Assembly (NCBI RefSeq): GCF_900176345.1
Contig: NZ_FWXU01000013.1
Location: 62,001 to 126,000 of the forward strand
Direction: 5' to 3'
From: Rhizobium sp. RU36D
Lineage (GTDB): Bacteria > Pseudomonadota > Alphaproteobacteria > Rhizobiales > Rhizobiaceae
Length of the DNA: 64,000 nt
Shown here: in pieces, positions 793 to 33,112 of the stretch
Layout: each line of letters opens with the position of its first letter
Position numbering within the stretch: the stretch's first letter is position 1
Notes under the pieces: generated by a model
The model's database searches: none
Seen by the model: only the letters and a program-made list of their open reading frames with translations
What the model was told of the DNA's origin: nothing
Made by a program: the position numbers and the translations under genes

Positions 793-871
793 GATGGGTG
801 CGGCGCAGTCCCTCTCCCCCTTGTGGGAAGGGATGAAAAACCAGCCTCTTAGGTAAGCCTAGCATAGACAC

Positions 872-2557: not shown

Positions 2558-2808
2558 CGCCTTGATGTATCTTGACTTATAAGAAACCTGGACCGTTGCG
2601 CGCCCCCCCTGACATAGCGACCAAGAGAAGCAAATCCTGGGTTGCGCGTCTAGTAGGTGACCACTTTTTGAATTGCAGCTATGCTTAATCTGCAGTGCGG
2701 CGTGCTTAAACGCCTTTCGCTCGAATAAATTTTAGGTCGATCCGACCTAAAATCATCCAGATCCAAGCGCTAGATTTTTCAGCTGATGGACCTATCGCCC
2801 CCCAAACC

Positions 2809-10607: not shown

Positions 10608-11135
10608 TCACGCCATGTGGGCAAAGCGCCCAAATCGCCCACGGGAAAAGCACAGGGGATCACCGTCGCGTTGTGCAGCGCGCAAAACCCTGCCGATAAT
10701 GATCGTGTGGTCGCCCGCATCATGCAGCGTCTGGCGCTGGCATTCGAAGCGGGAGAGGGTGCCGGGAATGACCGGCACACCTTCCACATTGTAGTGCCAG
10801 TCGATCGCCTCGAAGCCGTGTCCGCCGCGGGTAAAGCAGGCGGAAATATCATCCTGGTCGGCGCTCAGCACATGGATGACGAAATGCTCCGCCGCGGTGA
10901 ATGGCCCATGCCGGGCCGAGCTCTTGGCCGGCGACCACAAGACCAGCGGCGGATCGAGCGAGACCGAGGCGAAGCTGTTGACGGTCATGCCGAGAGGTCC
11001 GCCTGGCCCGACCGCGGTCACCACGGTCACTCCCGTGGTGAAGGTGCCTAGCGCATTGCGCAGGGCGCGGGCATTGTCGGCATCGGGCACGAAGACATGC
11101 TCTGAACCGGAGGCGGACGTCTCGGCTGTGATCAT
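10608..11135 (-). CDS. flavin reductase domain protein (DIM6/NTAB, HpaC-like)
   Basis: A 175-residue FMN/FAD reductase of the split-barrel family. The start region NALGTFTTGVTVVTA, the segment GMTVNSFASVSLDPPLVL and the later ISACFTRGGHGFEAIDW are the usual flavin-binding and dimer features. Such enzymes use NAD(P)H to reduce free flavin for a partner monooxygenase. Here it is the last gene of a three-gene operon with an LLM oxygenase and an aldo/keto reductase, and its ATG overlaps the preceding TGA as TGATG. The obvious reading is that it supplies reduced FMN to the oxygenase at 12028-13185. Confidence 0.88.
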   Translation of the reverse strand: MITAETSASGSEHVFVPDADNARALRNALGTFTTGVTVVTAVGPGGPLGMTVNSFASVSLDPPLVLWSPAKSSARHGPFTAAEHFVIHVLSADQDDISACFTRGGHGFEAIDWHYNVEGVPVIPGTLSRFECQRQTLHDAGDHTIIIGRVLRAAQRDGDPLCFSRGRFGRFAHMA

Positions 11136-12031
11136 CAGGGCACCTCGTGTCCTATGGCGTGGGTGTAGAGTTCGAACCAGGTCTGGCGGTCCAGCACCAC
11201 CTTTGCCGCATCGCCGATCGCGCTGATGCGGGCGAGGCTGTTGGTGCCGAGCACCGGCAGGATGCGGGCAGGGTGGCGCAGCAGCCAGGCGACCGCGACC
11301 GCGCTTGCATCCACGCCCTGCTCGGCGCCGATGCGCTCAAGGGCGGCGATCAGCGCCGGACGGGAGCCGTCGAACAGCTTGCCGCCGCCCAGCGGAGACC
11401 ATGCCATCGGCGGGATCATGCGCTCCTGCAGAAACGCAAGGTCGCCATTGGTGAAGGCCTGGGGCGCAACAAGGCTCATCTCGATCTGGTTGGTGACCAG
11501 CGTGGTCTCCATGGAGGACTGCAGCAGGGCATAGTCCCAGGGCCGGAAGTTGGAGACGCCGACGGCGCGCACCTTGCCGGAGGCCACCAGGGCATCGAGC
11601 GCCGGGCCGGTTTCGTCAGGGTCCATCAGCGGGTCGGGCCGGTGGATCAGCAGCAGATCGATACGGTCAGTGCCCATGTCGCGCAGCGAGGCCTCCACCG
11701 AGGCGTTGATATGCGCAGCCGTCGTATCGTAATGCTTCACGCGCGTGGCGGAGTGGCGGCCGGCTCCAACCAGGATGCCGCATTTTGTGACGATTTCCAG
11801 CTTGTCGCGCAGATGGGGTGCGGCCTTGAGCGCGCCGCCGAAGATCGCCTCGGCGGTGTAGCCGCCATAGATGTCGGCCTGGTCCATGGTGGTGATGCCC
11901 TGTGCCAGGCAGGCTTCCACCTTGGCCTGCACATGGGCCGGCGAGGTGTCCTTGTCGTCACCGATGCGCCACATGCCATAGACGAGGCGGCTCAGCGAGA
12001 GTTCGGGGGAAAGGTCGACGCGGTCGGTCAT
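11135..12031 (-). CDS. aldo/keto reductase
   Basis: A 298-residue NADPH-dependent aldo/keto reductase of the YdhF-like group. Features seen: LSRLVYGMWRI at the start, TTMDQADIYGGYTAEAIFG with the catalytic Asp-Tyr region, DLLLIHRPDPLMDP, VRAVGVSNFRPWDYALLQ, and the C-terminal cofactor segment RILPVLGTNSLARI. The ATG at 12031 overlaps the oxygenase stop (ATGA); the longer open frame upstream is antisense-like sequence inside the oxygenase gene and was discarded. It probably reduces an aldehyde or ketone produced by the upstream monooxygenase; the substrate is unknown. Confidence 0.9.
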   Translation of the reverse strand: MTDRVDLSPELSLSRLVYGMWRIGDDKDTSPAHVQAKVEACLAQGITTMDQADIYGGYTAEAIFGGALKAAPHLRDKLEIVTKCGILVGAGRHSATRVKHYDTTAAHINASVEASLRDMGTDRIDLLLIHRPDPLMDPDETGPALDALVASGKVRAVGVSNFRPWDYALLQSSMETTLVTNQIEMSLVAPQAFTNGDLAFLQERMIPPMAWSPLGGGKLFDGSRPALIAALERIGAEQGVDASAVAVAWLLRHPARILPVLGTNSLARISAIGDAAKVVLDRQTWFELYTHAIGHEVP

Positions 12032-19709: not shown

Positions 19710-20031
19710 CAGCGGGGTGCCTGCTGTGGCGGGGTCGGGTCCAGGCGGGGCAACATGATAGTCCAAGCACCAGGGGCTGCTCTATCACTTGAAGACCAGG
19801 GAATTTTCGGCTTGAGCGGTCCCGCCAAAGACCGATCTTTGTTGAAGTTGGTTCCGTTGTGAAAAAGGCGGCGTGGTCGGGATGCGCGATACCTGACATT
19901 GGCGCTGCCATCGCGTCCCGTCCGGCGATGTCGCAAGAATCAGGCTAACAAGTCTCGCTTTAACTGGAAATTCGCGACATGTTTTACATTGCCGCCTACC
20001 GAGTGCGGATAGATTTCAAGGGTCGAGTTGA

Positions 20032-20856
20032 GTGAAACACCAAAATGAGGATCAGGTCGCAAAGAGCGAAGATGCGGGCTCCGGGGTTTTCATTCTCTCT
20101 GTTAGCCAGGCGACAACAGCGACGTTCACGGACCTGTATATCACGCTGCCTTTTCTGATCTTTATCCAGACTGGATCGAAGCGCGTGATCTGCCCCACAC
20201 GTGGGGAGGTGATTGGCGAGGCGGGAGACGTGATGATCTTCCCTGCCGGCTCTGTGGTCACTTTGGAAAATCGCCGTATCCTGAATGCCAATTACCGGGC
20301 AGCTGGCGTGTATTTTACCCAGGATCTGGTCGACATGGTTTTTGCCGAGCATCCGCAAAGACATGTCTCACCGGGCATTCAGGTTTTGCGCGCAGAGCCT
20401 CACCGGCCCTTCGACGTTCTCAATCTCATAAAGGAAACACTCGACAGGCATGACCTGCCGCCTGCAATCAGGCAGCATCGACTTCTCGAACCCCTGATCT
20501 GGCTTCGGCAGAACGGAGTGCAGCTTCCAAGGCATGGTGAGGAGCAGGCATGGGGCAAGGTGCGGCGTCTGATCGAAACAGACCTTGGCCATCCGTGGCG
20601 GGTGAGTGACGTCGCCAGGCACTTTGCCATGAGCGAAGCAAGCTTTCGTCGGTGGCTCGCGAGATCAGGACCCGGTTTCGCGCAAATCCTGTTCAATACC
20701 CGCCTCGAGAGAGGCCTTACGCTTCTGCAAACGACCGACGTCCCCATTTCGCATATCGCGCTGGAATGCGGCTTTAGAACGCCGTCGCATTTTTCCGATT
20801 CCTTTCGAAAAAGGTTCGGAATAACGCCAAGAATGATCAGAACGGCCGAGGAATGA
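20032..20856 (+). CDS. AraC-family transcriptional regulator
   Basis: A 274-residue regulator with a GTG start. The N-terminal half is a cupin-like sensing region (LPFLIFIQTGSKRVI, GEAGDVMIFPAGSVVTLENR). The C-terminal 100 residues form the double helix-turn-helix of the AraC/XylS family: HPWRVSDVARHFAMSEASFRRW for the first and ISHIALECGFRTPSHFSDSF followed by RKRFGITPRMIR for the second. The next gene on the same strand is a secreted PEBP-family protein 99 bases downstream, which is a plausible target. Effector unknown. Confidence 0.92.
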   Translation: MKHQNEDQVAKSEDAGSGVFILSVSQATTATFTDLYITLPFLIFIQTGSKRVICPTRGEVIGEAGDVMIFPAGSVVTLENRRILNANYRAAGVYFTQDLVDMVFAEHPQRHVSPGIQVLRAEPHRPFDVLNLIKETLDRHDLPPAIRQHRLLEPLIWLRQNGVQLPRHGEEQAWGKVRRLIETDLGHPWRVSDVARHFAMSEASFRRWLARSGPGFAQILFNTRLERGLTLLQTTDVPISHIALECGFRTPSHFSDSFRKRFGITPRMIRTAEE

Positions 20857-20955
20857 TCGTTTTTCGATAGTATCTGATCGCGCGCCGGAAGCATGTCCGA
20901 GGCCCGCACGCTATCAGATGCAGCATGATCAATCGTCTGGAAAGGACACTCCATC

Positions 20956-21504
20956 ATGCGAAAGACGGCTTCTCTCATTGTATCGGTACTGGCAGCTCTG
21001 GTGGGCTCTGCAGCAAGCGCGCAGGACTTCAAACTGTCCAGCACCTCGATTGCCGAAGGTGTGCAACTTGGCGCCCTCTTCCTATTTAAGGGTTTTGGAT
21101 GCGACGGCGGCAACCTCTCGCCGCAACTGTCCTGGTCCGGCGTGCCCGAAGGCACGAAGAGCTTCGCCATCACGGCCTATGATCCGGATGCCCCGACCGG
21201 CTCGGGATGGTGGCACTGGAACGCCGTCAATATTCCGGCATCCGTCAACGCCCTTGAACTCGGTGCGAGCGGCAGTAACAAGATGCCGGCAGGCACCGTC
21301 GAAATTGCCAATGATTACGGCGTGACCGGGTTCGGGGGCGCTTGCCCGCCTCCAGGAGAAGTTCACCGCTATGTGTTCACGGTGCACGCACTGGCAACCG
21401 AGCGTCTGGAACTGCCGAAGAATCCTAGCAATGCACTGGCCGGGTTCATGATCGGCGCGAATACGATCCAGACTGCCCGCATTGTCGCGGTCTACAACCG
21501 CTGA
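20956..21504 (+). CDS. secreted YbhB/YbcL-type PEBP family protein
   Basis: A 182-residue protein of the phosphatidylethanolamine-binding (Raf kinase inhibitor-like) family. A signal peptide is clear: MRKTASLIVSVLAALVGSA with cleavage after ASA. The mature part holds the family motifs LSPQLSWSGVPEGTKSFA, YDPDAPTGSGWWHWNAVNI and GACPPPGEVHRYVFTVHAL, which form the small anion or lipid-head pocket. Most bacterial members are cytosolic; the exported form points to a periplasmic or surface role. It follows an AraC regulator on the same strand. Biochemical role of bacterial PEBPs is poorly known. Confidence 0.9.
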   Translation: MRKTASLIVSVLAALVGSAASAQDFKLSSTSIAEGVQLGALFLFKGFGCDGGNLSPQLSWSGVPEGTKSFAITAYDPDAPTGSGWWHWNAVNIPASVNALELGASGSNKMPAGTVEIANDYGVTGFGGACPPPGEVHRYVFTVHALATERLELPKNPSNALAGFMIGANTIQTARIVAVYNR

Positions 21505-21552
21505 GGTGATCGAGATAACGGCAGTCGACCAAGCATACTGACTGCCGTTTTG

Positions 21553-21674
21553 CCCCGGATAGACCGAGCGGCGCGCCAGCGCCGTATCACGCCCTGCCCT
21601 CCTCCAGCGCCAGTGACGAGCGCCGTTCAAACAGGGCAGCGATGAGGTCGGATTGGGTGATCAGGCCGACCAGC
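21553..21674 (-). pseudogene. duplicated 3' scrap of the HPP-CBS gene
   Basis: This 122-base stretch closely repeats the 3' end and flank of the intact HPP-CBS gene (from about 22425 to 22545). On the minus strand it still encodes TQSDLIAALFERR and LALEEGRA followed by a stop at 21587-21589, matching the intact C-terminus with only one or two amino-acid changes, and similarity runs past the stop codon. It ends abruptly at 21674, close to the 19-base repeat at 21691. It is a gene remnant left by duplication and deletion or insertion, not an expressed gene. Confidence 0.85.
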
Positions 21675-21690
21675 CCACATGTGCCCCTTT

Positions 21691-21709
21691 TTCGTCAGGT
21701 TTTGCAAAG
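21691..21709. repeat. 19-base direct repeat, copy 2
   Basis: Second copy of TTCGTCAGGTTTTGCAAAG, in the same orientation as 19691-19709. It lies 16 bases beyond the broken end of the HPP-CBS gene remnant. The two copies bracket the AraC regulator, the PEBP gene and the remnant. Confidence 0.7.
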
Positions 21710-21790
21710 TGGCGGTTCCGGCTTTGGCGTGGTCGCAATGCACCGATCGCCGTCATTGAATTGCACGTTTAACGTGATTATGGTCGCGGC

Positions 21791-22309
21791 ATGATGCACC
21801 GTTACATTTGTTTGCGACCAATAGTAGCTAAGACCATCGTATCGGTGATGCTGCTGTGTGCCGTAGGTCCGGCAGCGGCAGAACAGAGCAGTTTCCCCGG
21901 TGGCTTTCGGCTCGGCAGTTCCCTTGAGGACGCCAAGCGACATGCGGCCTCCCGTGGCTGGCAACTCTTGGCTATTTCACCGGAATTACCAGGCCAATGG
22001 CTTGTAGATGACCAGAATATAAGCATTCATGTGTGCAATGATACCTTGGCGAGGGTAACTCAGAGTTCACCAGGTGATCTGGATGAATTTGCGCAGATTG
22101 TCTCTCTCATCCGGAGGGAACGAGGCGAGCCAAATCTTCAGGTCGTGACGTTCATGGCTGGATCTGTGCCCGTATCAAATATCGATGCACGCTTCGCAGA
22201 GATGGACGGTCTGAGCGTCGCGGTGCAGTTGAGCAGCACGGGGGGCAAGCTTGCCCTAGCCACGACCTACTTTTCCCATGCATGCGCACGCCACCCGACA
22301 GAGCCCTAA
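21791..22309 (+). CDS. hypothetical secreted protein
   Basis: A 172-residue protein with an N-terminal export signal (hydrophobic run TIVSVMLLCAVGPAAAE, cleavage likely after AAA). The mature part is small and mixed, with two Cys residues (in HVCNDT and SHACAR) that may form a disulfide. No domain is recognised. It is slightly AT-richer than its neighbours and lies between the HPP-CBS gene remnant and the intact HPP-CBS gene, so it may have arrived with the event that broke the duplicate. Periplasmic location is inferred; function unknown. Confidence 0.6.
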   Translation: MMHRYICLRPIVAKTIVSVMLLCAVGPAAAEQSSFPGGFRLGSSLEDAKRHAASRGWQLLAISPELPGQWLVDDQNISIHVCNDTLARVTQSSPGDLDEFAQIVSLIRRERGEPNLQVVTFMAGSVPVSNIDARFAEMDGLSVAVQLSSTGGKLALATTYFSHACARHPTEP

Positions 22310-22458
22310 AGGCCGATTGTGGTGATCACGCCGTCCTGTCGCGTCATGCCTCCCTAGGCCTGAACCGCGCCTGTAGGGGGGCACGAGGTACGTAAGTTCC
22401 ACGCCTGCCGACATCCAAGCCCCATCCCGGATAAACCGACCGCCGCGCTGGAGCCATA

Positions 22459-23643
22459 TCACGCCCTGCCCTCCTCCAGCGCCAGTAACGAGCGCCGTTC
22501 AAACAGGGCGGCGATGAGGTCGGACTGGGTGACCAGCCCGACCAGGCGGTTGTCGTGATCGACGATCGGCATGTGGTGCAGGCCCTGATCGGCCATGGGC
22601 GGCACCAGCTTGGCGATCAGGGTTTCCGGCAGGGCGGATTGCACGCGCCGGGTCATGATATCGCCGACATGCAGCGGGCTCTTGCGGCGCCGGACGGAGG
22701 CCGCCAGCCGGTGGCGGAGCCCGAGCTTCAGCCGGCCGTCTTCCGAGAGGATGGCATGGCGCAGGAAATCCGTCTGGGTGAGGATGCCGACCAGTTCGCC
22801 CCTGTTCGAAACGACCGGCAGCGCCTTGATGCGGTGGGTGAGCAATTGTCGCCAGGCCGCGCGAAGCCCGGTCGCCTCGGTGACGGTCAGGACATCCCGC
22901 GACATGATCTCGCCGCAGGTGATCTCGCCCGAGCGGCGGTTAAACGCGCGGATCTGCGCCTGGTGCAGCAGGGCATCCAGGTCCTCGGGGCTGACATTGA
23001 CCACCTCGTCGTAATCTTCCAGCACCGCCCTGATATCGTCAGGTGCGGCGCCGAGACGGGCGCTGGGCGGCGGATCGGCTGTGTGGTGCGGGTTGGCCTG
23101 CGGCTTGGGTGGAAGATGGGGATAGGCGCGGCCGGTGATATTGTTGAAGGCCAGCGCCGTGCCGAGGATCAGCGCGCTGTTCAGGCCAACAGGCGAGAGC
23201 AGGAACCAGTAGCCGGCATCATGGATTGCCGAACCGCCCAGCACGGCAGTGAGCGCCACCGCACCCGAGGGCGGATGCAGGCAGTTCAGCATCAGCATGG
23301 CGCCAATGGACAGCGCAATGGCGAGGCTGGCCGCGAGCAGCGGATCCTTGATGAGGAGGGCCGCGGTGACGCCGATGAAGGCGGAGACCAGATTGCCGCC
23401 GAGGATCGACCAGGGCTGGGCCAGCGGGCTGGACGGGGCGGCAAACAGCAGCACGGCGGAGGCACCCATGGGCGCGATCAGCAGCGGCAGGTTGACCTCT
23501 GACCCCAGCGCCAGCTTGCTCGCAAAGCCAGTGAGCAGGATGCCGACAAGGGCCCCCAGCGAGGCGCGGGCGCGCTCTGCCAGGCTGGTGCGGGCAATGG
23601 AGGGCGTGAAACGCTGCAGCAGGCGCAGTGGAAGGGAAGACAT
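22459..23643 (-). CDS. HPP family membrane protein with C-terminal CBS pair
   Basis: A 394-residue protein. Residues about 20-175 form the HPP domain, named for its His-Pro-Pro motif (LNCLHPPSGAVALTAVLGG) with several membrane helices such as SLAIALSIGAMLML. The C-terminal half holds two CBS domains (MSRDVLTVTEATGLRAAWRQ; MTRRVQSALPETLIAKLVPP with IVDHDNRLVGLVTQSD) that usually bind adenosine nucleotides. HPP proteins are implicated in nitrite or anion transport; the CBS pair would gate transport by energy state. The ATG at 23643 is preferred to an upstream GTG at 23703, but neither has a strong ribosome site. A 3' fragment of the gene is duplicated about 0.9 kb downstream. Confidence 0.88.
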   Translation of the reverse strand: MSSLPLRLLQRFTPSIARTSLAERARASLGALVGILLTGFASKLALGSEVNLPLLIAPMGASAVLLFAAPSSPLAQPWSILGGNLVSAFIGVTAALLIKDPLLAASLAIALSIGAMLMLNCLHPPSGAVALTAVLGGSAIHDAGYWFLLSPVGLNSALILGTALAFNNITGRAYPHLPPKPQANPHHTADPPPSARLGAAPDDIRAVLEDYDEVVNVSPEDLDALLHQAQIRAFNRRSGEITCGEIMSRDVLTVTEATGLRAAWRQLLTHRIKALPVVSNRGELVGILTQTDFLRHAILSEDGRLKLGLRHRLAASVRRRKSPLHVGDIMTRRVQSALPETLIAKLVPPMADQGLHHMPIVDHDNRLVGLVTQSDLIAALFERRSLLALEEGRA

Positions 23644-23732
23644 CGGCAGACCCGGCGGGTGATGCGTTAAAAACGTGTCGCGACCGGTGAGAGCCGCTGC
23701 CACGCTTTAGACGCCTGTTTTCTCAGCATGAT

Positions 23733-23761
23733 CCCGCAAAACCGATTCACGATTTTGCGGG
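23733..23761. repeat. palindromic intergenic hairpin
   Basis: A hairpin with 9-base arms, CCCGCAAAA at 23733-23741 and TTTTGCGGG at 23753-23761, preceded by GCATGAT. This general form is familiar from widespread palindromic repeats in rhizobial genomes. It lies downstream of the LysE gene and upstream of the HPP-CBS gene, both on the minus strand, and may also terminate LysE transcription. Confidence 0.6.
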
Positions 23762-23886
23762 ACATAGCTTGTTGCCAGTCTGACTATCAGATCGCTGCAA
23801 AAACAGGCAGGGCCGATTTTCCAAATTTTGCGCATTTGCTGAAAAAAGTAGCGGAATGATGTGAGGGCTATCCGAGCCGTGGCCGG

Positions 23887-24519
23887 TCAGCTGCGTTGCA
23901 GCGCCAGATGGCCGCCGAGACCGATGAGGATGGTGCCACCCAGGCGCTGGGCGAGACGCTGGGCCCGGCCGGACTGCCTGACGCGGCTGACGATCAGCCC
24001 GGCCAGGGCGACGCAGACGAGATCGGCCAACGTGAAGATGGCATTCACGGCGATGCCGAGGATCAGGAATTGCAGCCATACCGGCAGGCTTGCGGCGCTA
24101 TCGACGAATTGCGGCAGGAAGGCCAGGAAAAACAGCGCGGTCTTGGGGTTCAGCACCTCCACCGCGACACTCTGGGCAAAGGCGCGTCGCGGCGAAGCGA
24201 CGGGCGCTTCGTGGCCATGGCCAGTCTCCCCGGTCCTGGCGCGCCACATGGAGATGCCGAGCCAGACCAGATAGAGCGCGCCAACCAGCTTCACCAGGGT
24301 ATAGGCGAGCGGCACCGCATGGAACAGCACCGAAAGCCCGGCCACGGAGGCCAGGATATGCACATAGGCGCCGAGATGGATGCCGGCCACCGCCATCACC
24401 CCCGCAAGCCGCCCGCCTGCCATGGTCCGCGCCGCCGCATAAAGCATGGCCGGGCCTGGAATTAAGGCAAAGACCGAGGTCGTGACGACGAAGGCCAGCA
24501 GGATATCAAGACTTGCCAT
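23887..24519 (-). CDS. LysE/RhtB family amino-acid exporter
   Basis: A 210-residue inner-membrane protein with about six hydrophobic segments. It begins MASLDILLAFVVTTSVFALI and contains the LysE-family signature PGPAMLYAAARTM, then VKLVGALYLVWLGISMWRA and LNPKTALFFLAFLPQFV, the latter highly conserved in this family. Members export amino acids or derivatives such as homoserine lactone. No regulator is adjacent, so the substrate is open. Standard length for the family. Confidence 0.92.
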   Translation of the reverse strand: MASLDILLAFVVTTSVFALIPGPAMLYAAARTMAGGRLAGVMAVAGIHLGAYVHILASVAGLSVLFHAVPLAYTLVKLVGALYLVWLGISMWRARTGETGHGHEAPVASPRRAFAQSVAVEVLNPKTALFFLAFLPQFVDSAASLPVWLQFLILGIAVNAIFTLADLVCVALAGLIVSRVRQSGRAQRLAQRLGGTILIGLGGHLALQRS

Positions 24520-24608
24520 GCGGGCGGGCCTTTGCGTGCGGTGGGTCTTGGACGGAAGGGTAGCGATTTTACCGCGGGGTGCAAGGTGAGGCGGGGTGCT
24601 CTCTCCGC

Positions 24609-25259
24609 CTAATACATCGACTTGCGATAGGCCTCCTCCAGATCGTCATCCAGCTTGCGCTGGGCATCCTGGTCGGCGGGCGCGCCCGAGGTTTCGTCCA
24701 GGATGATTTTCACCAGCGAGGGCATCTCCCGGCGATCCTGGAAATGCGCGGGATCCCACAGATGCGAGCGGCGGAAGGCCTTGGCGCAGTGCATGAAGAC
24801 CTCGCGCACCTTCACCACGATGGCGAGTTTCGGCACGCGGCCGCTGACCTCCATGGTGGCCAACAGATCGGGATCGGTGACCAGCAGCGCCTCGCCATTG
24901 ACCCTGAGCGTATCGTCAAAGCCGGGGATGATGAACAGCAGGCCGACATTGGGATTGGCGATGATATTGGCGAGCGTATCCAGCCGGTTATTGCCCGGCC
25001 GGTCGGGAATGGCAAGCGTCTGCTCATCCAGGATGCGCACGAAACCTGAGGGATCGCCGCGCGGGCTGACATCCGCCCGGCCATCAGCGCTTTGCGTGCC
25101 GATACACAGGAACGGCGACCGGCGAATGAAATCCTGCGCATGGGGGCCGAGCCGATCCTGGCATTTCTGGATGGCAAGCGTGTGGGTGGGCTCATAGAGG
25201 CCGCGCAGGGATGCAGCGTTGGTGATGGTGTGGGCCGGATCGGGTGTGTAGGTGGTCAT
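24609..25259 (-). CDS. PNPOx-family FMN-binding protein (MSMEG_1061 type)
   Basis: A 216-residue flavin-binding split-barrel protein. Key segments are FLCIGTQSADGRADVSPRGD, LAIPDRPGNNRLDTLANI, NPNVGLLFIIPGFDDTLRVN and the C-terminal KAFRRSHLWDP, the pattern of the MSMEG_1061 subfamily. These proteins bind FMN or F420 and act as oxidoreductases of unknown substrate rather than as true pyridoxamine-phosphate oxidase. A GAGGGAAC site supports the ATG. It stands alone and marks the left boundary of the AT-richer reverse transcriptase insert. Confidence 0.85.
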   Translation of the reverse strand: MTTYTPDPAHTITNAASLRGLYEPTHTLAIQKCQDRLGPHAQDFIRRSPFLCIGTQSADGRADVSPRGDPSGFVRILDEQTLAIPDRPGNNRLDTLANIIANPNVGLLFIIPGFDDTLRVNGEALLVTDPDLLATMEVSGRVPKLAIVVKVREVFMHCAKAFRRSHLWDPAHFQDRREMPSLVKIILDETSGAPADQDAQRKLDDDLEEAYRKSMY

Positions 25260-25664
25260 GATGTGTTCCCTCGGTTTTTTCGTATGCCTTGGCTGACGAG
25301 CAGTGACGCTTGATGTACGTGCCTCATTTCGGTGATAGGAGGCATTTTAGTCAAAGGCAAGGATGGCAACGGTACCTTTTTGGCGAACCCTCGATCGGCT
25401 GGCCGATTGGGGCCGCGAGCAGACAGTCTGCCGTCAGATCGAACCTGATGATAGCGGACATGTCATCATCTATTGTGCTGGGAGAAAACGCCCCAAAGCC
25501 TCCGGTGGCATTAACCTCCAAAGCCATCAACAAAGCGACCTAGACGGATATTGGTCGGCGGCCACACCTCCAAATTCGGTAGCAAGTGTTCGTCTTATCG
25601 TCGCTCATATATACTTCTCAAGTGATATCTGAGATGTTGCAGAAGCAATCATCACACGGTCATC
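25260..25664 (+). other. leader region of the reverse transcriptase; candidate non-coding RNA
   Basis: A 405-base stretch without a convincing gene. It shows several potential hairpins: TGCCTC at 25320-25325 pairing with GAGGCA at 25339-25344, an ATCGGC/GCCGAT dyad near 25394-25407, a CAGAC/GTCTG dyad near 25420-25430, and GATGAT/ATCATC flanking a 12-base loop near 25448-25471. A small frame (25363-25632, 89 codons) ends 32 bases before the reverse transcriptase but has no recognisable family or strong ribosome site. By analogy with defence-associated reverse transcriptases that use an upstream RNA as template, this may be a structured non-coding RNA; that is inference. Confidence 0.35.
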
Positions 25665-27464
25665 ATGAGATCTCCCCGCTTTGATATACGTGCCAAGAAG
25701 CTGCGCACGATCTTTTCGCCACAGAACATCGAAAGGATTTGGAAGGAGAAAGTCAAAGTCTCCATGCGTGATCAATTCATTTGCGATGGTATTGAGAACT
25801 TCGATTTTCACGTATCGCGAAAGGTAGAGAGCCAAAAACTCTCGCACTTGATCTTATCAGGCGATTACGCTCCGCAGAAAGCACAACGAATACTCGTAGA
25901 AAAGAGCAAAGGTCTTTGCCGGCAGCTCGTCATTCCGAGTGTCCGTGATGCTATCGTTTTACAGTGCTTATCTGATGCCCTTTATTCTGAGATCAAAGGC
26001 AAGGCACCTACGAGCAAGGCGTTCTTTGAGCCGAAGGATCACAAGTTCTCTTCGCCTCCGAGTGGTTATGGCACGTTCGCAGCTTGGCTGAATTTCCAGA
26101 AAGAGCTCTTCGAATTCTCAAAGACGCGCAAATTTATCGTCGTCACGGACATCGCAAACTACTACGACAGCATTTCTTACGTCCATCTCCGCAATGCGAT
26201 TGCTTCAATCAGTGGCGTCGAGGAATGTGTGATCGATATGCTGATCTACGTTCTCGGCGATCTGCTTTGGCAACCTGACTACACTCCTCGCATCGAGGTC
26301 GGTTTGCCGCAGATCAATCTTGATGCACCCCGCTTGCTCGCGCATTGCTTCCTCTACGAACTGGATTCCTACCTAGCCAGCGACCCCGAACGGGACTTTG
26401 TGCGTTACATGGATGACATCGATATTGGCGTTGACACGATCGTCGATGCCAAGCGAGCGTTGAAGACAGTTGATCTTGTTCTCCAGACGAAACAGGTTCG
26501 TTTGAATAGCGGAAAGACGGTCATTCTCACGCAGTCCGAGGCTATTCGGCATTTCCGGATTTTTGAAAACGCACGCTTGGATACAGTCCAGGCTAGAGTC
26601 GACTATCGCCTAAAACACGGACTTCCGTTGGACAGGCAGCGCGCGCTTGTTGAAGCCAGAATACGGCAAGGAATTCGTAAAAAATTATTCGACGCAGGAA
26701 ACGGCGAAAAGGTCCTGAAACGGTGGCTGGGTCTTGCGACAAAAACCGATGCTGTGGTCAAACCGGAAGTCCTAGAAGATCTAATTAAGCGGCGACCGGC
26801 GGTCCGTGAAAATGTTTACGCATTAATTAGGGGCCGCCCCCTGGCTCCGTCGGTCGCACGCGTTTTAGCAAGGGCTGGTCAGTCAGGTCTTCTTGTAGAC
26901 GACGCCGCAATGGTCGAGATGTCGAACTATCTTGTTGAGACATTAGTCCAAACAAGGCGCTGTCACCCAATGATTGAAACGATCATCGCAAGCAACGATC
27001 CGCAGAACTATTTTGGACTCTATTCAAGGCTTTGGCTCCAGTCGAAATATGGGACGCCGGCCCAGCTTCTTGCAACTCTTCAAGATGCCCGCAAACTCTG
27101 GGTCCCGCATGACCGGTTGGGACGCCTGGCAGCATCGTTCTTTCCTTTGTTTCTCGGCACTCCCGAAGAGGCCTCCCTAAAAAGCCTACTTGCGGACACT
27201 CTAAACGCCGGGGTGCGCGAGACTCTTAAGTTCCATATGAATCTTGCTAGGGACCTCCCTACCTTCAAGGCAATGTTCGACGCCCTAAAGGCTCCTAATC
27301 CGTCCCGCGGAACCGGCATAACGCACGCAAAATTTCTTTGTCTCATATCCGCATTGCGAAACCCTGCCGCACCGGCCGCTCAGATTGCGACTCTGAGAAC
27401 CAATCATTCCCGAGCCTTCGAAGACAGCTACTACAAGGCCATAGGCAAGCGTCTCGGGATCTAG
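25665..27464 (+). CDS. solo reverse transcriptase, probable defence-associated (UG/Abi-like)
   Basis: A 599-residue RNA-dependent DNA polymerase. The palm motifs are intact: motif A VVTDIANYYDSI (Asp162), motif B GLPQINLDAPRLLAH from residue 213, motif C RYMDDIDIG (YMDD at 248-251) and the following LNSGKTVIL at 280-288. Residues 1-120 form a finger-like region with KSKGLCRQLVIPSVRDAIVLQ. The 300 residues after the palm are mostly helical and match no maturase, HNH, RNase H or integrase domain I know, which excludes group II intron and retroelement types. There is no weak sign of frameshift. Coding composition is clearly AT-richer than both neighbours. The ATG lacks a clear ribosome site. Solo reverse transcriptases of this shape belong to the Unknown Group/Abi clade, several of which block phages; the subgroup cannot be named from sequence alone. 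Confidence 0.85.
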   Translation: MRSPRFDIRAKKLRTIFSPQNIERIWKEKVKVSMRDQFICDGIENFDFHVSRKVESQKLSHLILSGDYAPQKAQRILVEKSKGLCRQLVIPSVRDAIVLQCLSDALYSEIKGKAPTSKAFFEPKDHKFSSPPSGYGTFAAWLNFQKELFEFSKTRKFIVVTDIANYYDSISYVHLRNAIASISGVEECVIDMLIYVLGDLLWQPDYTPRIEVGLPQINLDAPRLLAHCFLYELDSYLASDPERDFVRYMDDIDIGVDTIVDAKRALKTVDLVLQTKQVRLNSGKTVILTQSEAIRHFRIFENARLDTVQARVDYRLKHGLPLDRQRALVEARIRQGIRKKLFDAGNGEKVLKRWLGLATKTDAVVKPEVLEDLIKRRPAVRENVYALIRGRPLAPSVARVLARAGQSGLLVDDAAMVEMSNYLVETLVQTRRCHPMIETIIASNDPQNYFGLYSRLWLQSKYGTPAQLLATLQDARKLWVPHDRLGRLAASFFPLFLGTPEEASLKSLLADTLNAGVRETLKFHMNLARDLPTFKAMFDALKAPNPSRGTGITHAKFLCLISALRNPAAPAAQIATLRTNHSRAFEDSYYKAIGKRLGI

Positions 27465-27680
27465 CTCACTGTCCCAACGACAGGTATTTGTCCGCTTCAA
27501 TGTATCTCCAACTGAGGCCTTGAAGACCCGCTTCGCCCCGAACTCGGTCCGACTCGCCGTGTTGGAGCCATCCCGGATCGAAGCAGGAGCCGCGACCGCA
27601 TTCGGGCCCGTCAATCAGGTTGCCGAATGACTTTGATGACGGCTCAAACCAGACACTCCCCACCACTCCGCCACCACCCC

Positions 27681-28796
27681 CTACCCCGCCAACCTCCCCC
27701 CCGTCATCGGCTTCGGCGCGCCCGTGGTCGAGGGAAAGCTGATCGGCAGTCCGCGGAGCACGCGGACGGCGAGGAAGGCGAAGCATTCGGCTTCCACGGC
27801 GTCGCCGCGCCAGCCAAGAGTTTCGGCCGGGATCGGCTCGGCCTTGGCGCGGGTCTTCAGCATGGCCATGATGGTGGGGTTGTGGCGGCCGCCGCCGCTG
27901 ACGACGAGCTTTGTCGGCCGGCGCGGCAGGAGATCGAGCGCCTTGCCGACAGCAGACGCGGTGAAGGCGGCGAGCGTGGCGGCGCCATCGGCGACCGACA
28001 AGCCCTCGGCCATGGTCGCGGTGAAATCGAACCGGTCGAGCGATTTCGGATAGGGTTTGCTGAGCCAGGGATGGGTCAGCAGCCGGGCGAGGCGCTCCTC
28101 ATCAACAGTGCCGGCGGCCGATAGCGTGCCGTCGCGGTCCATCTCCCCCAATCCGTGGGCCTTGATCCAGTCATTGAGCGGGGCATTGGCTGGGCCGGTA
28201 TCGAAGGCGACAACGGTGTCGGATCCATCGAACCAGGTCATATTGCCGACACCGCCGAGGTTCAGCACGGCGGTATCGCCATCCTTCGCCACGTCGCGCA
28301 GCAGCGCCGCATGATAGGCGGCGGCGAGCGGGGCACCCTGCCCGCCGGCCGCGACATCGGCGGAGCGGAAATCCCAGGCGACTTTCGTGCCGAGCAGCGC
28401 GCTCATGAGCTTGCCATCGCCGAGCTGCCGCGTGGCGCCGAGGCGGCCGGGCTGCGGCGCCCGGTGCAGCACCGTCTGGCCATGAAAGCCGACGACGCCG
28501 ATCTCAGCCATGGTAAGGCCGCTGGATTCCACCAGATCGCGAACGGCCTGGGACTGGGCGCGGGTCAGCCGCTCCTCCGCCTCGGCGAAAATCGCCGGCT
28601 CCGGGCCTTCGAAATTCCAGGCGCGGGCCTGGCGCAGGGTTTCCTCTAGGAGGTCGCGGGTTTCGCGTGGATAGGGGGCGAGCGTATAGGCGCCGGCCGC
28701 CTCGATGCGCTCGCCATCGGTCTTCAACAGCGCCACGTCGATATTGCCGTCCAGCACGGTGCCGGTCATCAGACCCACGGCCCAGATCGGTTGCAT
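27681..28796 (-). CDS. anmK: anhydro-N-acetylmuramic acid kinase
   Basis: A 371-residue kinase that cleaves and phosphorylates 1,6-anhydro-MurNAc to MurNAc-6-phosphate in cell-wall recycling. Motifs: [20 protein letters not shown] at the start (canonical GxMSGTSxDGxD with the serines replaced by Thr and Val), [55 protein letters not shown] and [13 protein letters not shown]. The ATG at 28796 has AGGAG upstream; the frame extends further but without family sequence. It is a single gene and forms the right boundary of the reverse transcriptase insert. The 216 bases to its right-hand neighbour 27464 hold no gene that I can support. Confidence 0.93.
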
Positions 28797-28878
28797 GGCA
28801 GGCTCCTTGCGATTTGCTATCCCTGCCGACAGCGTGTCGCGTGCGGTGCCGCCGGTGTCAAGACGGGATGGCGGGACG

Positions 28879-29355
28879 CTATCCCCGACGGGCGGCATTG
28901 ATGGCGGCGACGTCGATCTTGCCCATCTGCATCATGGCCGCAAAGGCGCGCTTGGCTTCTTCGCCGCCGGCGGCCATGGCCTCCGTCAGCGTGCGCGGGG
29001 TGATCTGCCAGGAGAGGCCCCATTTGTCCTTGCACCAGCCGCAGGCGCTTTCCTGCCCGCCATTGCCGACGATGGCGTTCCAGTAGCGGTCGGTTTCTTC
29101 CTGGTCGTCGGTGGCGATCTGGAAGGAAAAGGCTTCCGTCTGGCGAAAGGCCGGGCCGCCGTTCAGCCCCATGCAGGGAATGCCGCAAACGGTGAAATCG
29201 ACCGTCAGCACATCGCCTTCCTGGCCGGAGGGATAATCGCCCGGCGCGCGATGAACGGCATGCACGGCGCTATCGGGAAAAACAGAGGCATAAAAGCGCG
29301 CGGCCTCCTCCGCATCGCGCTCGAACCACAGGCAGATGGTGTTTTTCGGTGTCAT
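28879..29355 (-). CDS. VOC/PhnB-type glyoxalase-fold protein
   Basis: A 158-residue member of the PhnB-like 3-dmu-9_3-mt domain group of the vicinal oxygen chelate superfamily. It has [58 protein letters not shown] and [15 protein letters not shown], the usual strands and the CGWCKDKWG turn. It starts with a very strong ribosome site (AGGAGGAGG). Members bind metals or small ligands, and no activity is established for most. It precedes a YdeI-like gene's end by 48 bases on the same strand and could be co-transcribed with it. Confidence 0.9.
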
Positions 29356-29403
29356 GGTGTTCCTCCTCCTCTTATGCTGGTGCCCTGATGCGTCAGGACG
29401 CGC

Positions 29404-30024
29404 CTACCGTTCTGTCGCGCCCTTGCCGGCCAGGATATGGCCGCGGAACTTGGCGATGCGGCCGATGCGGGTGGCCGCGGTCTTGGCGCCCAAGAGGTTG
29501 ATCGCATAGCTTTTCTGCCGGCCGGGGGTCAGCCCGTGAAAGGCCTCCGCAAGTTCGGGATCGGCATCCAGCGCCTCGACCAGTTCCTCCGGCAACTCGA
29601 TCTCGCTTGTCTCCTTCGGCGGCTTGATGCCGGCCGCGGCATAGCCCATGGCTTCCTGGAGATAGGCCAGGATGATAGGCCGCATGGCCAGCGGCTGGGC
29701 GTTGTCGTCAAACCGGATCATGTCCGGATGGCGCGTGTTCGGCCCCTGCCGCTGCAACACGCCTTCAGGGTCCTTCATCAGCGCCGCATTGAAGAAGGTC
29801 AGCCGGAAATCGCCGCGGAAGGCGCCAAAGATCGCGATGTTGCGGCCGGCATGCATATAGCAGGGATGGCCCCATTTCACCACTTCCTCCAGGCCCGACG
29901 CGCGACAGATCTCGCGCAGATCGGCCAGACCCTGGTGCCACTGGCGGGTGGAACAGTCCGGCGTCGCATGCCGCTCGCAGCGGCCGCAGCCCAGGCTGAA
30001 AAAGTCTTCGATCTCGGTGATCAT
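29404..30024 (-). CDS. YdeI/OmdA-like DUF1801 protein
   Basis: A 206-residue protein with an N-terminal DUF1801 domain (LEEVVKWGHPCYMHAGRNIA, then FGAFRGDFRLTFFN) and a C-terminal OmdA-like segment (LPEELVEALDADPELAEAF, LTPGRQKSYAINLLGAKTAA, RIGRIAKFRG). This pair defines the YdeI family, linked in enterics to resistance against cationic peptides, though the mechanism is unclear. The ATG at 30024 follows a GGGAAG-like site; the longer open frame is discarded. It lies upstream of the VOC gene on the same strand, 48 bases apart. Confidence 0.87.
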   Translation of the reverse strand: MITEIEDFFSLGCGRCERHATPDCSTRQWHQGLADLREICRASGLEEVVKWGHPCYMHAGRNIAIFGAFRGDFRLTFFNAALMKDPEGVLQRQGPNTRHPDMIRFDDNAQPLAMRPIILAYLQEAMGYAAAGIKPPKETSEIELPEELVEALDADPELAEAFHGLTPGRQKSYAINLLGAKTAATRIGRIAKFRGHILAGKGATER

Positions 30025-30240
30025 GATGCTCGCTTCCCTATGCCCAGACGGTCTCGACCATCTCCTGCCCGTCTGCCCCAGGGACGTGCCGCCTCCAGCC
30101 GTTTCCATAGCAGCAAATCGGGGTTAAGGGGACCAGGGCGTTGCATGCGCATGGAGCAGGATTTGGACGCGATGATCAATCCCACGGCCGAGCCTCAACA
30201 CGAGTTTTCGTTCGGTTGAGAAGCTATATAGACTTCCCGC

Positions 30241-30795
30241 ATGCCGTTTTCTATCTTGGCAAAGATTGCAGCGATTGGTCGGCAGGCAATGCAGTTTGTG
30301 CTGTTAATACTCATAGGTGGGGCAATTTGGTTTTGGGCCGGTCTCTCTTCGGAACCTGCTTATCGGGAGGCTAATCCTGTCGAGGCCCATCTCTGGGAAA
30401 ATAGTCATCTCTCTCTAGTTCCCCCATTGGAGATGCAGGCCTACTACCGTGACGGCTTCACGTCCGTGTGCATTTTTCCAAACAGTGATAATACACCGCG
30501 GGGATCGGCAGAATTTGAAAATGTCTCAATCAAGACGATCGTAAAGGGCGAAGAGAGCAAAGGCTATTTGGAGCCGCTTTTCCACGTTTATTGGGTCAAT
30601 CAATCGGGTGAGGCGATTATCTGGAATCTGGACTGGAACCGATACAATGTAAAATTCGGTCCTGATGTTCTGAGAAAACACGATGGCTCACTGTCCGAAC
30701 ATGGATGTCGAGCCGATTTTCGAGCAAAACTCTTGTTCACATCCGAGCGGGACATGATGACGGTGACCTTCACAAAGGCACAGGCTGAACCCTGA
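30241..30795 (+). CDS. hypothetical membrane-anchored protein
   Basis: A 184-residue protein with one N-terminal hydrophobic segment (QFVLLILIGGAIWFWAGL), probably an uncleaved anchor with the rest in the periplasm. The remainder is a mixed beta-rich domain of about 140 residues containing two Cys (SVCIFPN and HGCRAD) that may bond. I recognise no family. Its base composition is AT-richer than flanking genes, which suggests recent transfer. It is convergent with the dppF-type gene 30 bases away. Confidence 0.6.
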   Translation: MPFSILAKIAAIGRQAMQFVLLILIGGAIWFWAGLSSEPAYREANPVEAHLWENSHLSLVPPLEMQAYYRDGFTSVCIFPNSDNTPRGSAEFENVSIKTIVKGEESKGYLEPLFHVYWVNQSGEAIIWNLDWNRYNVKFGPDVLRKHDGSLSEHGCRADFRAKLLFTSERDMMTVTFTKAQAEP

Positions 30796-30825
30796 TGTAT
30801 TGGTGGCGGGCAGAGCTTTTTGGTT

Positions 30826-31791
30826 TCATTTCATCTCCTCCGCCCGGTGGCAGGCCGCCTGGCGCAATGGCTCGATCTCGCGCAGTTCCGGCGCCTCGGA
30901 CAGGCAGCGGGCCACGGCCAGCGGACAGCGCGGGGCAAAGGCGCAGCCGGATGATGGGGTGTTTGCGAGCAGCGCGGGTCGTGTTGATGGCTCCGGTCGG
31001 CCGAAGCGGGTGACGGAGGGTTCGGCGTCAGCCAGCATGCGCGTATAGGGGTGCAGCGGCCTGTCGAACACCACCGCCGCCGGGCCGGTCTCGACGATCC
31101 GGCCGCGATACATGACCCCCACCCGATCGGCGATGGCATCGACGGCGGCGAGATTGTGGGTGATGAACAGGAAGGTGACGCCGCGCGTTTCGCGCAGCTC
31201 CATCAGCAGGTTCAGCACCTGCGCCTGGACGGAAAGATCAAGCGCTGACACCGCCTCATCCGCCACTACGAGCTTCGGCGCCGTAATGAGCGCCCGGGCA
31301 ATCGCGATGCGCTGGCGCTGGCCGCCGGAAAATTCGTGCGGGTAGCGGTGGGCATGGTCGGCGCTCAGGCCCACGCTTTCCAGCATCTCGACCACGCACT
31401 CGCGGGTCTCGGCGCGGCCGGGGCGACTGGGCAGGACATGCAGCGGCTCGGCCACGATGCGCTCCACCCGATGGCGCGGATCAAGCGAGCCATAGGGATC
31501 CTGGAACACCATCTGGAAATGCCGGCGCCGGCGGGCAAGCTCCCGCGGCGAAAGCGCGAAGAGGTCTTCGCCATCAAACAGCACCTGCCCCTCCGTCGGC
31601 TGGTCCAGCGCTATGACGAGCCGCGCCAGCGTGGACTTGCCGCAGCCGCTTTCGCCGACCAGGCCAAAGATTTCCCCGGGCTGGATGGTCAGCGACACCC
31701 GGTCCAGCGCCCGCAGGCGATGCACGGGGCCTGTGAGGCGCCGGGAGAGATAATCGCGGGAGAGGTCGCGGAGGTCGAGGAGCGGGGTCAT
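30826..31791 (-). CDS. peptide ABC transporter ATP-binding protein (DppF/OppF type)
   Basis: A 321-residue ATPase. Walker A is GLVGESGCGKSTLARLV, the signature is FSGGQRQRIAIARAL and Walker B is KLVVADEAVSALDLSVQ. The C-terminal oligopeptide-binding region with four clustered Cys (GCAFAPRCPLAVARC and ACH) marks the OppD/DppF class and often holds an Fe-S cluster. It is the last gene of a five-gene minus-strand operon (binding protein, permeases B and C, ATPases D and F) and drives import across the inner membrane together with DppD. A palindromic element separates it from dppD. Confidence 0.93.
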   Translation of the reverse strand: MTPLLDLRDLSRDYLSRRLTGPVHRLRALDRVSLTIQPGEIFGLVGESGCGKSTLARLVIALDQPTEGQVLFDGEDLFALSPRELARRRRHFQMVFQDPYGSLDPRHRVERIVAEPLHVLPSRPGRAETRECVVEMLESVGLSADHAHRYPHEFSGGQRQRIAIARALITAPKLVVADEAVSALDLSVQAQVLNLLMELRETRGVTFLFITHNLAAVDAIADRVGVMYRGRIVETGPAAVVFDRPLHPYTRMLADAEPSVTRFGRPEPSTRPALLANTPSSGCAFAPRCPLAVARCLSEAPELREIEPLRQAACHRAEEMK

Positions 31792-31903
31792 GGGTGGCGG
31801 CCCGCGAGGCTATTGGGGAGATTTCGGCCTGCGGCCTTCGCAACCTCCCGGCTAAGGCCGTTCAGCGTTCTCTGCTGCTTGTTCTTGAGCCGAATGTCCA
31901 GGG

Positions 31904-32070
31904 TACCCCCCTCTGCCCTGCCGGGCATCTCCCCCTCAAGGGGGGAGATCGACTCGCGGCACTGCCGCACACCATCACGGGCCTTTCGGCGTTTGATCAA
32001 AGGGCGAGCGGGTGCGGCAATCCGATCTCCCCCCTTGAGGGGGAGATGGTCGGCAGACCAGAGGGGGGTA
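31904..32070. repeat. palindromic mosaic element, copy B
   Basis: Arms at 31904-31951 and 32023-32070 are inverted copies of each other, identical except near the arm middle, and enclose about 70 bases. The centre (with GTTTGATCAAAGGGCGAGCGG) matches the centre of copy C in reverse orientation. It fills the gap between the dppD-type and dppF-type genes. The stretch 31792-32134 contains nothing else I can support. Confidence 0.88.
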
Positions 32071-32134
32071 GGGCTGAAAGCCCACATTGGCTGGCAACAC
32101 CAGGACGGCACGATCGCCACAGGGAGCATCTCCA

Positions 32135-33112
32135 TCACCGCCCCTCCCCCGCATGGATGCAGCGGACGCCGCGGCCGGAGGTGGTGATCGTCCAGCCGGG
32201 TTCGGCGGCGTGGCAGGCGGGTTCGCGGTCAGGACATCGGTCGGAAAACACGCAGCCTGGCGGCAAGGCGGTGAAGGCGGGCACGGTGCCGGGGATGGTG
32301 GGCAGGGGGAGGCGATCCCGGCGGCGGCGGGGGACAGCGGCGAGCAGCCCGGCGGTATAGGGGTTTGCGGGTGTGGTCAGCACCTCGCGGGTTGGTCCCT
32401 CCTCCATCCGCCGGCCGGCATAGAGCACGATCATGCGGTCACACATGCGGGCGATGATGCCGAGATCGTGGCTGACCAGCAACAGCGCCATGCCCTGCTC
32501 GCGCGTCAGATCGTCAAGGATATCCAGCACCTCCGCCTGCACCGTCACGTCGAGCGCCGTGGTCGGCTCGTCGGCGATCAGAAGCTGCGGCTTCGGCGCG
32601 ATCGCCATGGCGATGCCGACGCGCTGGCGCTGGCCGCCGGAAAGCTCGTGCGGATAGCTCGTCGCCCGGCGGGCGGCGTCGGGAATGCGCACCTGGTCCA
32701 TGAGGGAGACCGCCTCCCGCCGTGCCGCGCCCCAGGACAGGCCGCGATGCAGCACCAGCCCTTCGGCAATCTGGTCACCAACCGTCATGGATGGGTTGAG
32801 CGCGGTCATGGGTTCCTGGAAAATCATGCCGATCCTGGCGCCGCGGATCGCGCACAGGTCCGGCTCCCCGGTTTCCAGCAGGTCCTGGGCGTCGAACTGG
32901 ATGCGGCCGGTCGCACGCGCCACAGGTGGCAGCAGGCCCATGACCGCGAGCGCCAGCAGCGTCTTGCCCGATCCGCTTTCGCCGACGACGCCAAGGGTTT
33001 CGCCGGCCTGAAGGTCGAGGGCGATATCGGTCAGGATCGCCAGCGGCGGCGCGCCCGCGCTTGCGATGGAGACGGTGAGATCGCGGATAGAGAGCAGCGG
33101 GGGGTTAGGCAT
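32135..33112 (-). CDS. peptide ABC transporter ATP-binding protein (DppD/OppD type)
   Basis: A 325-residue ATPase with Walker A GVVGESGSGKTLLALAVM, signature LSGGQRQRVGIAMAIA and Walker B QLLIADEPTTALDVTVQ. The C-terminal PPGCVFSDRCPDREPACH gives the Cys cluster of peptide transporters. It forms a heterodimer with the dppF-type ATPase. Both flanking gaps hold inverted copies of the same palindromic element, so the gene as a whole is bracketed by inverted repeats, an unusual arrangement inside an operon. Confidence 0.93.
   Translation of the reverse strand: MPNPPLLSIRDLTVSIASAGAPPLAILTDIALDLQAGETLGVVGESGSGKTLLALAVMGLLPPVARATGRIQFDAQDLLETGEPDLCAIRGARIGMIFQEPMTALNPSMTVGDQIAEGLVLHRGLSWGAARREAVSLMDQVRIPDAARRATSYPHELSGGQRQRVGIAMAIAPKPQLLIADEPTTALDVTVQAEVLDILDDLTREQGMALLLVSHDLGIIARMCDRMIVLYAGRRMEEGPTREVLTTPANPYTAGLLAAVPRRRRDRLPLPTIPGTVPAFTALPPGCVFSDRCPDREPACHAAEPGWTITTSGRGVRCIHAGEGR

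Follow-up and report, generated by a model that had tools for sequence, protein, structure and literature searches.

The 64,000-nucleotide stretch of Rhizobium sp. RU36D analysed here (contig NZ_FWXU01000013.1, positions 62,001 to 126,000; hereafter the window) carries a single-gene reverse transcriptase (RT) whose profile places it in the UG13a group. On balance, and with modest confidence, we think it probable that this enzyme is a solo, horizontally acquired, protein-primed anti-phage polymerase that works without a dedicated non-coding RNA (ncRNA). The features on which this reading turns are the following (window coordinates, all on the + strand).

25665..27464, +: UG13a-group reverse transcriptase, single gene (open reading frame of 599 codons, ATG to TAG; PADLOC RT_UG13a; RVT_1)
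26139..26174, +: motif A, residues 159-170, with catalytic D162
26301..26345, +: motif B, GLPQINLDAPRLLAH, residues 213-227, in the group's own form with invariant R223
26403..26429, +: motif C, RYMDDIDIG, residues 247-255, with catalytic D250 and D251
26559..27404, +: predicted all-helical HEAT/ARM-like solenoid (alphaRep-like), residues about 299-580, from structure prediction and fold matches
27423..27434, +: D-x-[YF]-Y motif, residues 587-590, from column conservation, with Tyr590 as candidate priming residue

As a preliminary description of this DNA had stated, the frame encodes a 599-residue RT with intact motifs A, B and C: D162, D250 and D251 are each present in 71/71 sequences of an alignment of homologues that reaches down to 26% identity and on which all residue counts given here are based. 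The ATG start codon is supported by the N-terminal MxSPxF motif, since its S3 is kept in 70/71 homologues. Pfam finds RVT_1 as the sole domain of the protein (29.8 bits, cut-off 29.6) and, again in agreement with that description, no maturase, HNH, RNase H or integrase domain. The span given for the locus, 25260..27680, does contain the gene, but its right end lies 216 nt past the stop codon.

Among RT group models the protein matches PADLOC RT_UG13a from end to end (6.6e-217, 720.1 bits; residues 1-595 on model positions 1-587 of 589), while the second-best PADLOC model, RT_UG21, reaches 117 bits and is confined to the RT half. The RT_UG13a model is likewise matched by 71/71 of the aligned homologues. 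Judged by these profiles, the locus is a member of an already catalogued group and not a new kind, so the word "new" used for it earlier was too strong; no feature was found that separates this gene from UG13a. The UG13 group was reportedly defined in the UG/Abi survey of 2022. No experimental test of it was found in the open-access literature searched, where the main text of a relevant classification paper has no mention of UG13, and the group is apparently untested.

The RT is of the stand-alone kind represented by Abi proteins and defence-associated reverse transcriptases (DRT), and nothing marks it as part of a group II intron, a retron or a diversity-generating retroelement. No NCBIfam model exceeds its own cut-off on the protein: Drt4, Drt5 and Drt3a each score about 24 bits, the group II RT model TIGR04416 scores 73 bits against a cut-off of 300, and the retron model NF038233 scores 18.7 bits against 235. 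Pfam detects no maturase domain and Rfam no intron RNA, nor indeed any match anywhere in 24000-29000. Retron-type repeats, whose absence had been noted before, are indeed missing; 25250-27700 does hold three inverted-repeat pairs, but they are imperfect, lie within the gene and are about 1 kb apart. Among direct repeats of at least 35 nt in 20000-33000 no template/variable pair of a diversity-generating retroelement touches the RT, although heavily mutated pairs could escape such a search. Three repeat families occur in that interval, two within paralogous ABC transporter genes and one at 21554/22426. The latter is a 120-nt direct repeat (21554-21673 and 22426-22545, 90% identical), of which the first copy is intergenic and the second overlaps the end of the gene at 22459-23703.

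The GLPQINLDA stretch of motif B occupies residues 213-221, and the NLDAPRLLAH form had been considered unusual. It turns out to be ordinary for these enzymes: G213, P215 and R223 are found in 71/71 homologues, Q216 and H227 in 70/71, and D220 and A221 in 69/71, so that, to judge from the alignment, this form is a signature of the UG13a group and not a peculiarity of this copy. The ratio of nonsynonymous to synonymous substitution rates (dN/dS) is low, 0.044-0.088 for the whole gene against five relatives (loci L001, L011, L002, L003 and L004; L005, L012 and L026 were left out because they are saturated at synonymous sites). By part, with the same five relatives, it is 0.012-0.036 for residues 1-300 and 0.058-0.159 for the remainder, which indicates strong purifying selection, most of all on the polymerase half.

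For the C-terminal half, previously taken to hold no recognisable domain, structure prediction gives a high-confidence all-helical HEAT/ARM-like solenoid (predicted local distance difference test score, pLDDT, of 90.4 for the full-length model and 95.1 for the C-terminal domain alone), which resembles the Class 1 helical-repeat domain. In structural alignment the predicted whole chain aligns with the single-gene DRT6, DRT4, AbiK and Abi-P2, which bears out the earlier suggestion of an Abi/DRT-type solo form. The modelled architecture is that of Class 1 UG/Abi enzymes, in which an RT is joined to a C-terminal helical HEAT-like repeat domain. The helical domain taken alone gave no Foldseek match at an E-value of 0.001 or better, and no Abi or DRT chain was among the 50 VIA-align matches listed for it.

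Behind the solenoid the tail is variable, and in the last 19 columns of the alignment conservation of at least 95% is seen only at D587 (70/71) and Y590 (69/71). A tyrosine stands at 589 or 590 in 70/71 homologues. The exception, P0237, is a divergent UG13a-like RT from the window's own genus (L015 1498-3312; 31% identity, GTG start), whose tail has Phe-Phe instead. In the available portions of the sources, protein priming from a C-terminal tail is described for DRT10 (S456), for DRT3b (Y666) and, as probable, for DRT9 (Y496/Y498); by analogy with these enzymes Tyr590 is the best candidate for the DNA-priming residue and the likely primer. Further tyrosines conserved in the alignment, namely Y68 (71/71), Y135 and Y206 (70/71 each), Y167 (69/71) and Y166 (66/71), would be alternative candidates. 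The conserved tail tyrosine is also suggestive of template-independent, protein-primed synthesis by UG13a. Such synthesis of single-stranded DNA (ssDNA), primed by a tyrosine and carried out by the product of a single gene, is reported for DRT4, where a phage protein stabilises the ssDNA (as far as the accessible text of PMC13213688 and PMC13314766 goes).

Put together, the working of the enzyme might be as follows. Residues about 1-298 would form palm and fingers, with the helical-repeat domain (about 299-580) in the thumb position as in Class 1. Phage infection would activate the enzyme, the first nucleotide would be attached to a tyrosine of the C-terminal tail (Tyr590, possibly Tyr589), and a single DNA strand would then be extended, held between the RT and helical lobes, with no dedicated ncRNA taking part. 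The covalent protein-DNA product might be toxic to the infected cell or might sequester phage factors; DRT4 is a reported and DRT9 a proposed example of such action.

The distribution of the gene is that of a mobile accessory gene, patchy and horizontally moved. Matches were found in 15/200 related genomes at an E-value of 0.001, seven of them below 1e-70, and at 1e-30 in 4/397 genomes of the order sample and 1/385 of the class sample (the own genome is counted each time, and the samples are not disjoint). At 1e-20 there are matches in seven plasmid records; phage records gave no match and viral contigs none, the latter search being one that finds close relatives only. The own genome has one RVT_1 match. 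The claim of an AT-richer composition stands, with a GC content of 51.1% for the RT gene versus 63.0% for the whole window and third-position GC of 56% versus 80-84% in four neighbouring genes. Such a dip, though genuine, is not confined to this gene: a second AT-rich stretch near 1 kb of the window (801-2800) has 52.1% GC over 1.8 kb, only slightly above the value for the RT gene. Across loci the gene is lower in GC than the adjoining 400 nt in 13/15 cases (for L011 and L014, read reversed, the adjoining stretch is downstream). No empty site could be defined when the flanking DNA was searched in 60 genomes of the same genus (40 and 56 with a match), and in the one genome compared, G028, the matches to the two flanks lie about 0.5 Mb from each other. 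There are no direct repeats of at least 14 nt in 25250-27700.

In some loci the surroundings point to defence. Neighbourhoods were compared for 17 loci (the window, L001-L008, L026-L028 and L089-L093, of which L093 starts at a contig end). The RTs of L002 (Paracoccus, Rhodobacterales) and L003 (Nitratireductor, Hyphomicrobiales) are 98% identical, and in both they directly follow nearly identical genes for SIR2, HerA and a 354-residue protein (L002 3292-7955, L003 3289-7955); in L002 the cassette is headed by a type IIG restriction enzyme. The 354-residue protein of L002 has no Pfam or PADLOC match, and its gene may be part of the defence cassette. The RT of L008 lies 131 nt behind a IIG-type restriction enzyme, and on a Leptospira weilii plasmid a distant UG13a-like RT (L028 5245-7812, about 28% identity) begins 162 nt after an annotated restriction endonuclease. 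Three Leptospira weilii plasmid records hold an RT of this kind, and one of these records has it at two positions. Other copies have other genes nearby: a tRNA-Thr, a VapE-like gene and an integrase in L004, a tRNA-Ser and a primase-polymerase in L005, a tRNA-Met near the RT in L006, an integrase adjoining the RT in L093, a resolvase in L027, and a D12-class DNA methyltransferase about 4 kb off in L007. In L007 (8001-9799, Alsobacter metallidurans) the UG13a frame itself is broken by a stop at codon 54, with an open reading frame from 8168 covering the rest; this copy is either a pseudogene or a sequencing error.

Several observations weigh against our reading. In profile comparison the RT core scores 69 bits to group II RTs versus 17 bits to UG15, which we take to be DRT4, and for this reason template use is the main doubt. 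The available portions of the sources on DRT9 and DRT10 describe enzymes that combine tail priming with an RNA template, so by analogy a tail tyrosine would be compatible with templated synthesis as well. Support from defence islands is real in a few loci and is not seen in most: the immediate neighbours are ordinary or without a Pfam match in the window, L001, L089, L090, L091 and L092, and when the 26 nearest neighbours were pooled, five PADLOC families were matched by one member each (domain scans took in some, not all, of the neighbours). Finally, a gene with a PF06983 domain recurs near three of the loci, which is hard to ascribe to chance alone.

The doubt about the template leads to the alternative of an RNA-templated defence RT working in the Class 2 mode, whose template would be an ncRNA encoded elsewhere, its own mRNA or phage RNA and whose cDNA product would be repetitive or toxic. 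The proximity of the core to group II RTs speaks for it, as do the retained G-x-P-Q of motif B and the precedent of DRT9 and DRT10, in which, according to the available excerpts, C-terminal protein priming is paired with an RNA template. The search for a partner RNA argues the other way, although an RNA encoded in trans was not searched for. When flanks of 1 kb on each side were compared across 16 loci, common DNA was seen between the window and L001 and between L002 and L003; in addition L011 shares 64-83 nt before the start codon with the window and L001, and the window and the L015 flank share one 17-nt match. With flanks of up to 6 kb in 14 loci, the remaining shared stretches fall within protein genes, chiefly the PF06983 and ABC-transporter genes. 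The stretch next to the start codon is as follows.

25605..25664, +: leader just upstream of the ATG, common only to the window and its two nearest relatives, L001 and L011

This leader is identical at 52/60 positions to L001 and at 42/60 to L011, and 13 other upstream regions all score at or below the 95th percentile of shuffled sequences. As a family ncRNA it was rejected, being shared with L001 and L011 only; it is probably a promoter or leader. The promoter scan gave no promoter-like sites, and terminator-like sites are no commoner than chance. Against L001 the upstream flank differs by about 20% at a synonymous divergence (dS) of 0.43 and so looks neutral. Spacing around the gene is tight in several loci: in L002 and L003 a gap of 45 nt separates the upstream gene from the RT, and the next open reading frame follows the stop codon of the RT by 65 nt in L026 and by 2 nt in L027. 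Folding of the flanks gives z-scores of -2.3 (25399-25530), -1.7 (25515-25664) and -0.9 (a third stretch) in the window and of -0.1 (the homologue of 25515-25664) and -0.7 in two flank stretches of L001. An RNA embedded in the gene was likewise rejected, since the rise in synonymous identity is mild and confined to codons 1-15 (1.27-fold) and the vicinity of codon 186 (1.22-fold) in a scan of 15-codon windows over ten sequences (L003, a near copy of L002, and L007, with its broken frame, were dropped, and L014, L015, L016 and L027 were left out). No family-wide flank similarity of the kind expected of a Class 2 cis ncRNA was thus seen, with the limits that a very divergent RNA could escape and that the sensitivity of the method is unmeasured: a positive control was tried with Drt2, which matched in 2/398 genomes at 1e-60, none over the family cut-off, and gave no usable pair. 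We consider it unlikely that the family as a whole has a Class 2-type cis RNA. Since the structural alignments over both lobes are, moreover, with single-gene enzymes, we regard the RNA-templated alternative as doubtful, though it is the one to be taken most seriously. A bridging form can also be imagined, in which a group II-like template-binding core and an Abi-type helical lobe, primed by a C-terminal tyrosine, would make cDNA from phage transcripts or from its own mRNA with no RNA gene of its own; we would give it a slim chance.

The ordinary surroundings of several copies bring up another alternative, namely a domesticated RT with a role outside defence, such as repair or cDNA synthesis in host physiology. 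In the window the neighbours are these.

24609..25259, -: left neighbour, pyridoxamine 5'-phosphate oxidase-like (PNPOx_N; PF01243, 66.7 bits), divergent from the RT
27681..28898, -: right neighbour, anhydro-N-acetylmuramic acid kinase (AnmK; PF03702, 252.9 bits), convergent with the RT
28879..29355, -: PF06983 gene, second to the right of the RT (167.4 bits), probably not part of the system

Both flanking genes had been said to point away from the RT; the PNPOx_N gene does, but the AnmK gene points towards it. Few neighbours recurred among 12 loci compared, and a recheck of the 17 loci covered 6 kb on each side. Within that distance of the RT, 3/17 loci have a PF06983 gene of 80-81% identity: the window, L026 (5337-5816, 184 nt upstream of the RT) and L091 (about 11057-11512). 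All three also have ABC-transporter ATPase genes close to the RT. Because the RTs of these loci are only 42-73% identical, they look like separate arrivals. The PF06983 gene is single-copy in its own genome and has a match in 11/21 genomes (E-value 1e-20); its presence within 6 kb in 2/16 other loci would, by our rough estimate, be expected by chance about once in 1000 if insertions were uniform, before allowing for the choice of gene. Since order and strand differ between the loci, an insertion hotspot is likelier than a partner. Genes for MocR-type regulators also occur within a few kb of the RT in L001 (12294-13781, with GntR and aminotransferase domains), L092 (13230-14645) and, more weakly, L089 (10739-12160), at 56% and 29% identity to that of L001. 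The gene adjacent to the regulator is common to L001 and L092, and an 857/890-residue gene and its neighbour are common to L001 and L002. As operon partners all these recurring neighbours were rejected, because their order and strand differ, and we take them as shared ordinary neighbourhoods or insertion hotspots.

A domesticated RT would be consistent with such settings, with the group II-like core and with conservation that is strong and, by impression, stronger than expected of a defence gene. It fits poorly with the patchy occurrence (7/200, 4/397 and 1/385 genomes), with an RT 98% identical across two orders, and with copies that lie on plasmids, beside integrases and tRNAs or behind restriction genes, and we consider it unlikely. 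A mobile retroelement or group II-derived intron remnant moving by its own RT might account for one gene with a group II-like core at many different sites, but it is very improbable, as there is no intron RNA, no maturase or endonuclease domain, no direct repeat of at least 14 nt in 25250-27700, and none of the conserved ends between copies that a self-mobile element needs.

Several UG groups each make a different DNA: genes, homopolymers, repeats or random strands. Within this spectrum UG13a is a compact one-gene representative of the UG RTs, and whether it uses a template matters for understanding how template-free immune polymerases arose from templated RTs. It is informative in this respect because, by sequence, its RT core lies closer to group II introns than to those solved DRTs that align with it.

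If UG13a is a protein-primed anti-phage polymerase, as we favour, its counterparts in form include DRT4 and DRT6, each of one gene, in which RT and helical domain align with the predicted chain over 443-454 residues, though at only 13-16% identity in these structural alignments. AbiK, Abi-P2 and AbiA of Class 1 likewise have palm and fingers followed by a helical domain (alignment over 383-466 residues); their priming would differ, since the primer is Tyr44 in the fingers of AbiK and lies in a linker loop of AbiA (PMC9508834 and PMC11077055, as far as their available text goes), whereas the best candidate in UG13a is in the C-terminal tail. Group II intron RTs are nearer than DRT4 by sequence of the RT core, but the maturase domain and intron RNA that mark them were not found here. 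DRT9 and DRT10 of Class 2 both require a cis-encoded ncRNA, according to the accessible parts of the sources, and none was detected beside the UG13a RT. DRT3b (UG8, Class 1) has, by its published description, the same domain order, with the RT at 1-322, an alphaRep at 323-621 and a C-terminal tail that carries the primer Y666 (PMC13174585, available portion); no DRT3b chain is named among the profile and structural matches listed for the UG13a protein. DRT3b needs DRT3a and an ncRNA, whereas the genome examined here has a single RVT_1 match.
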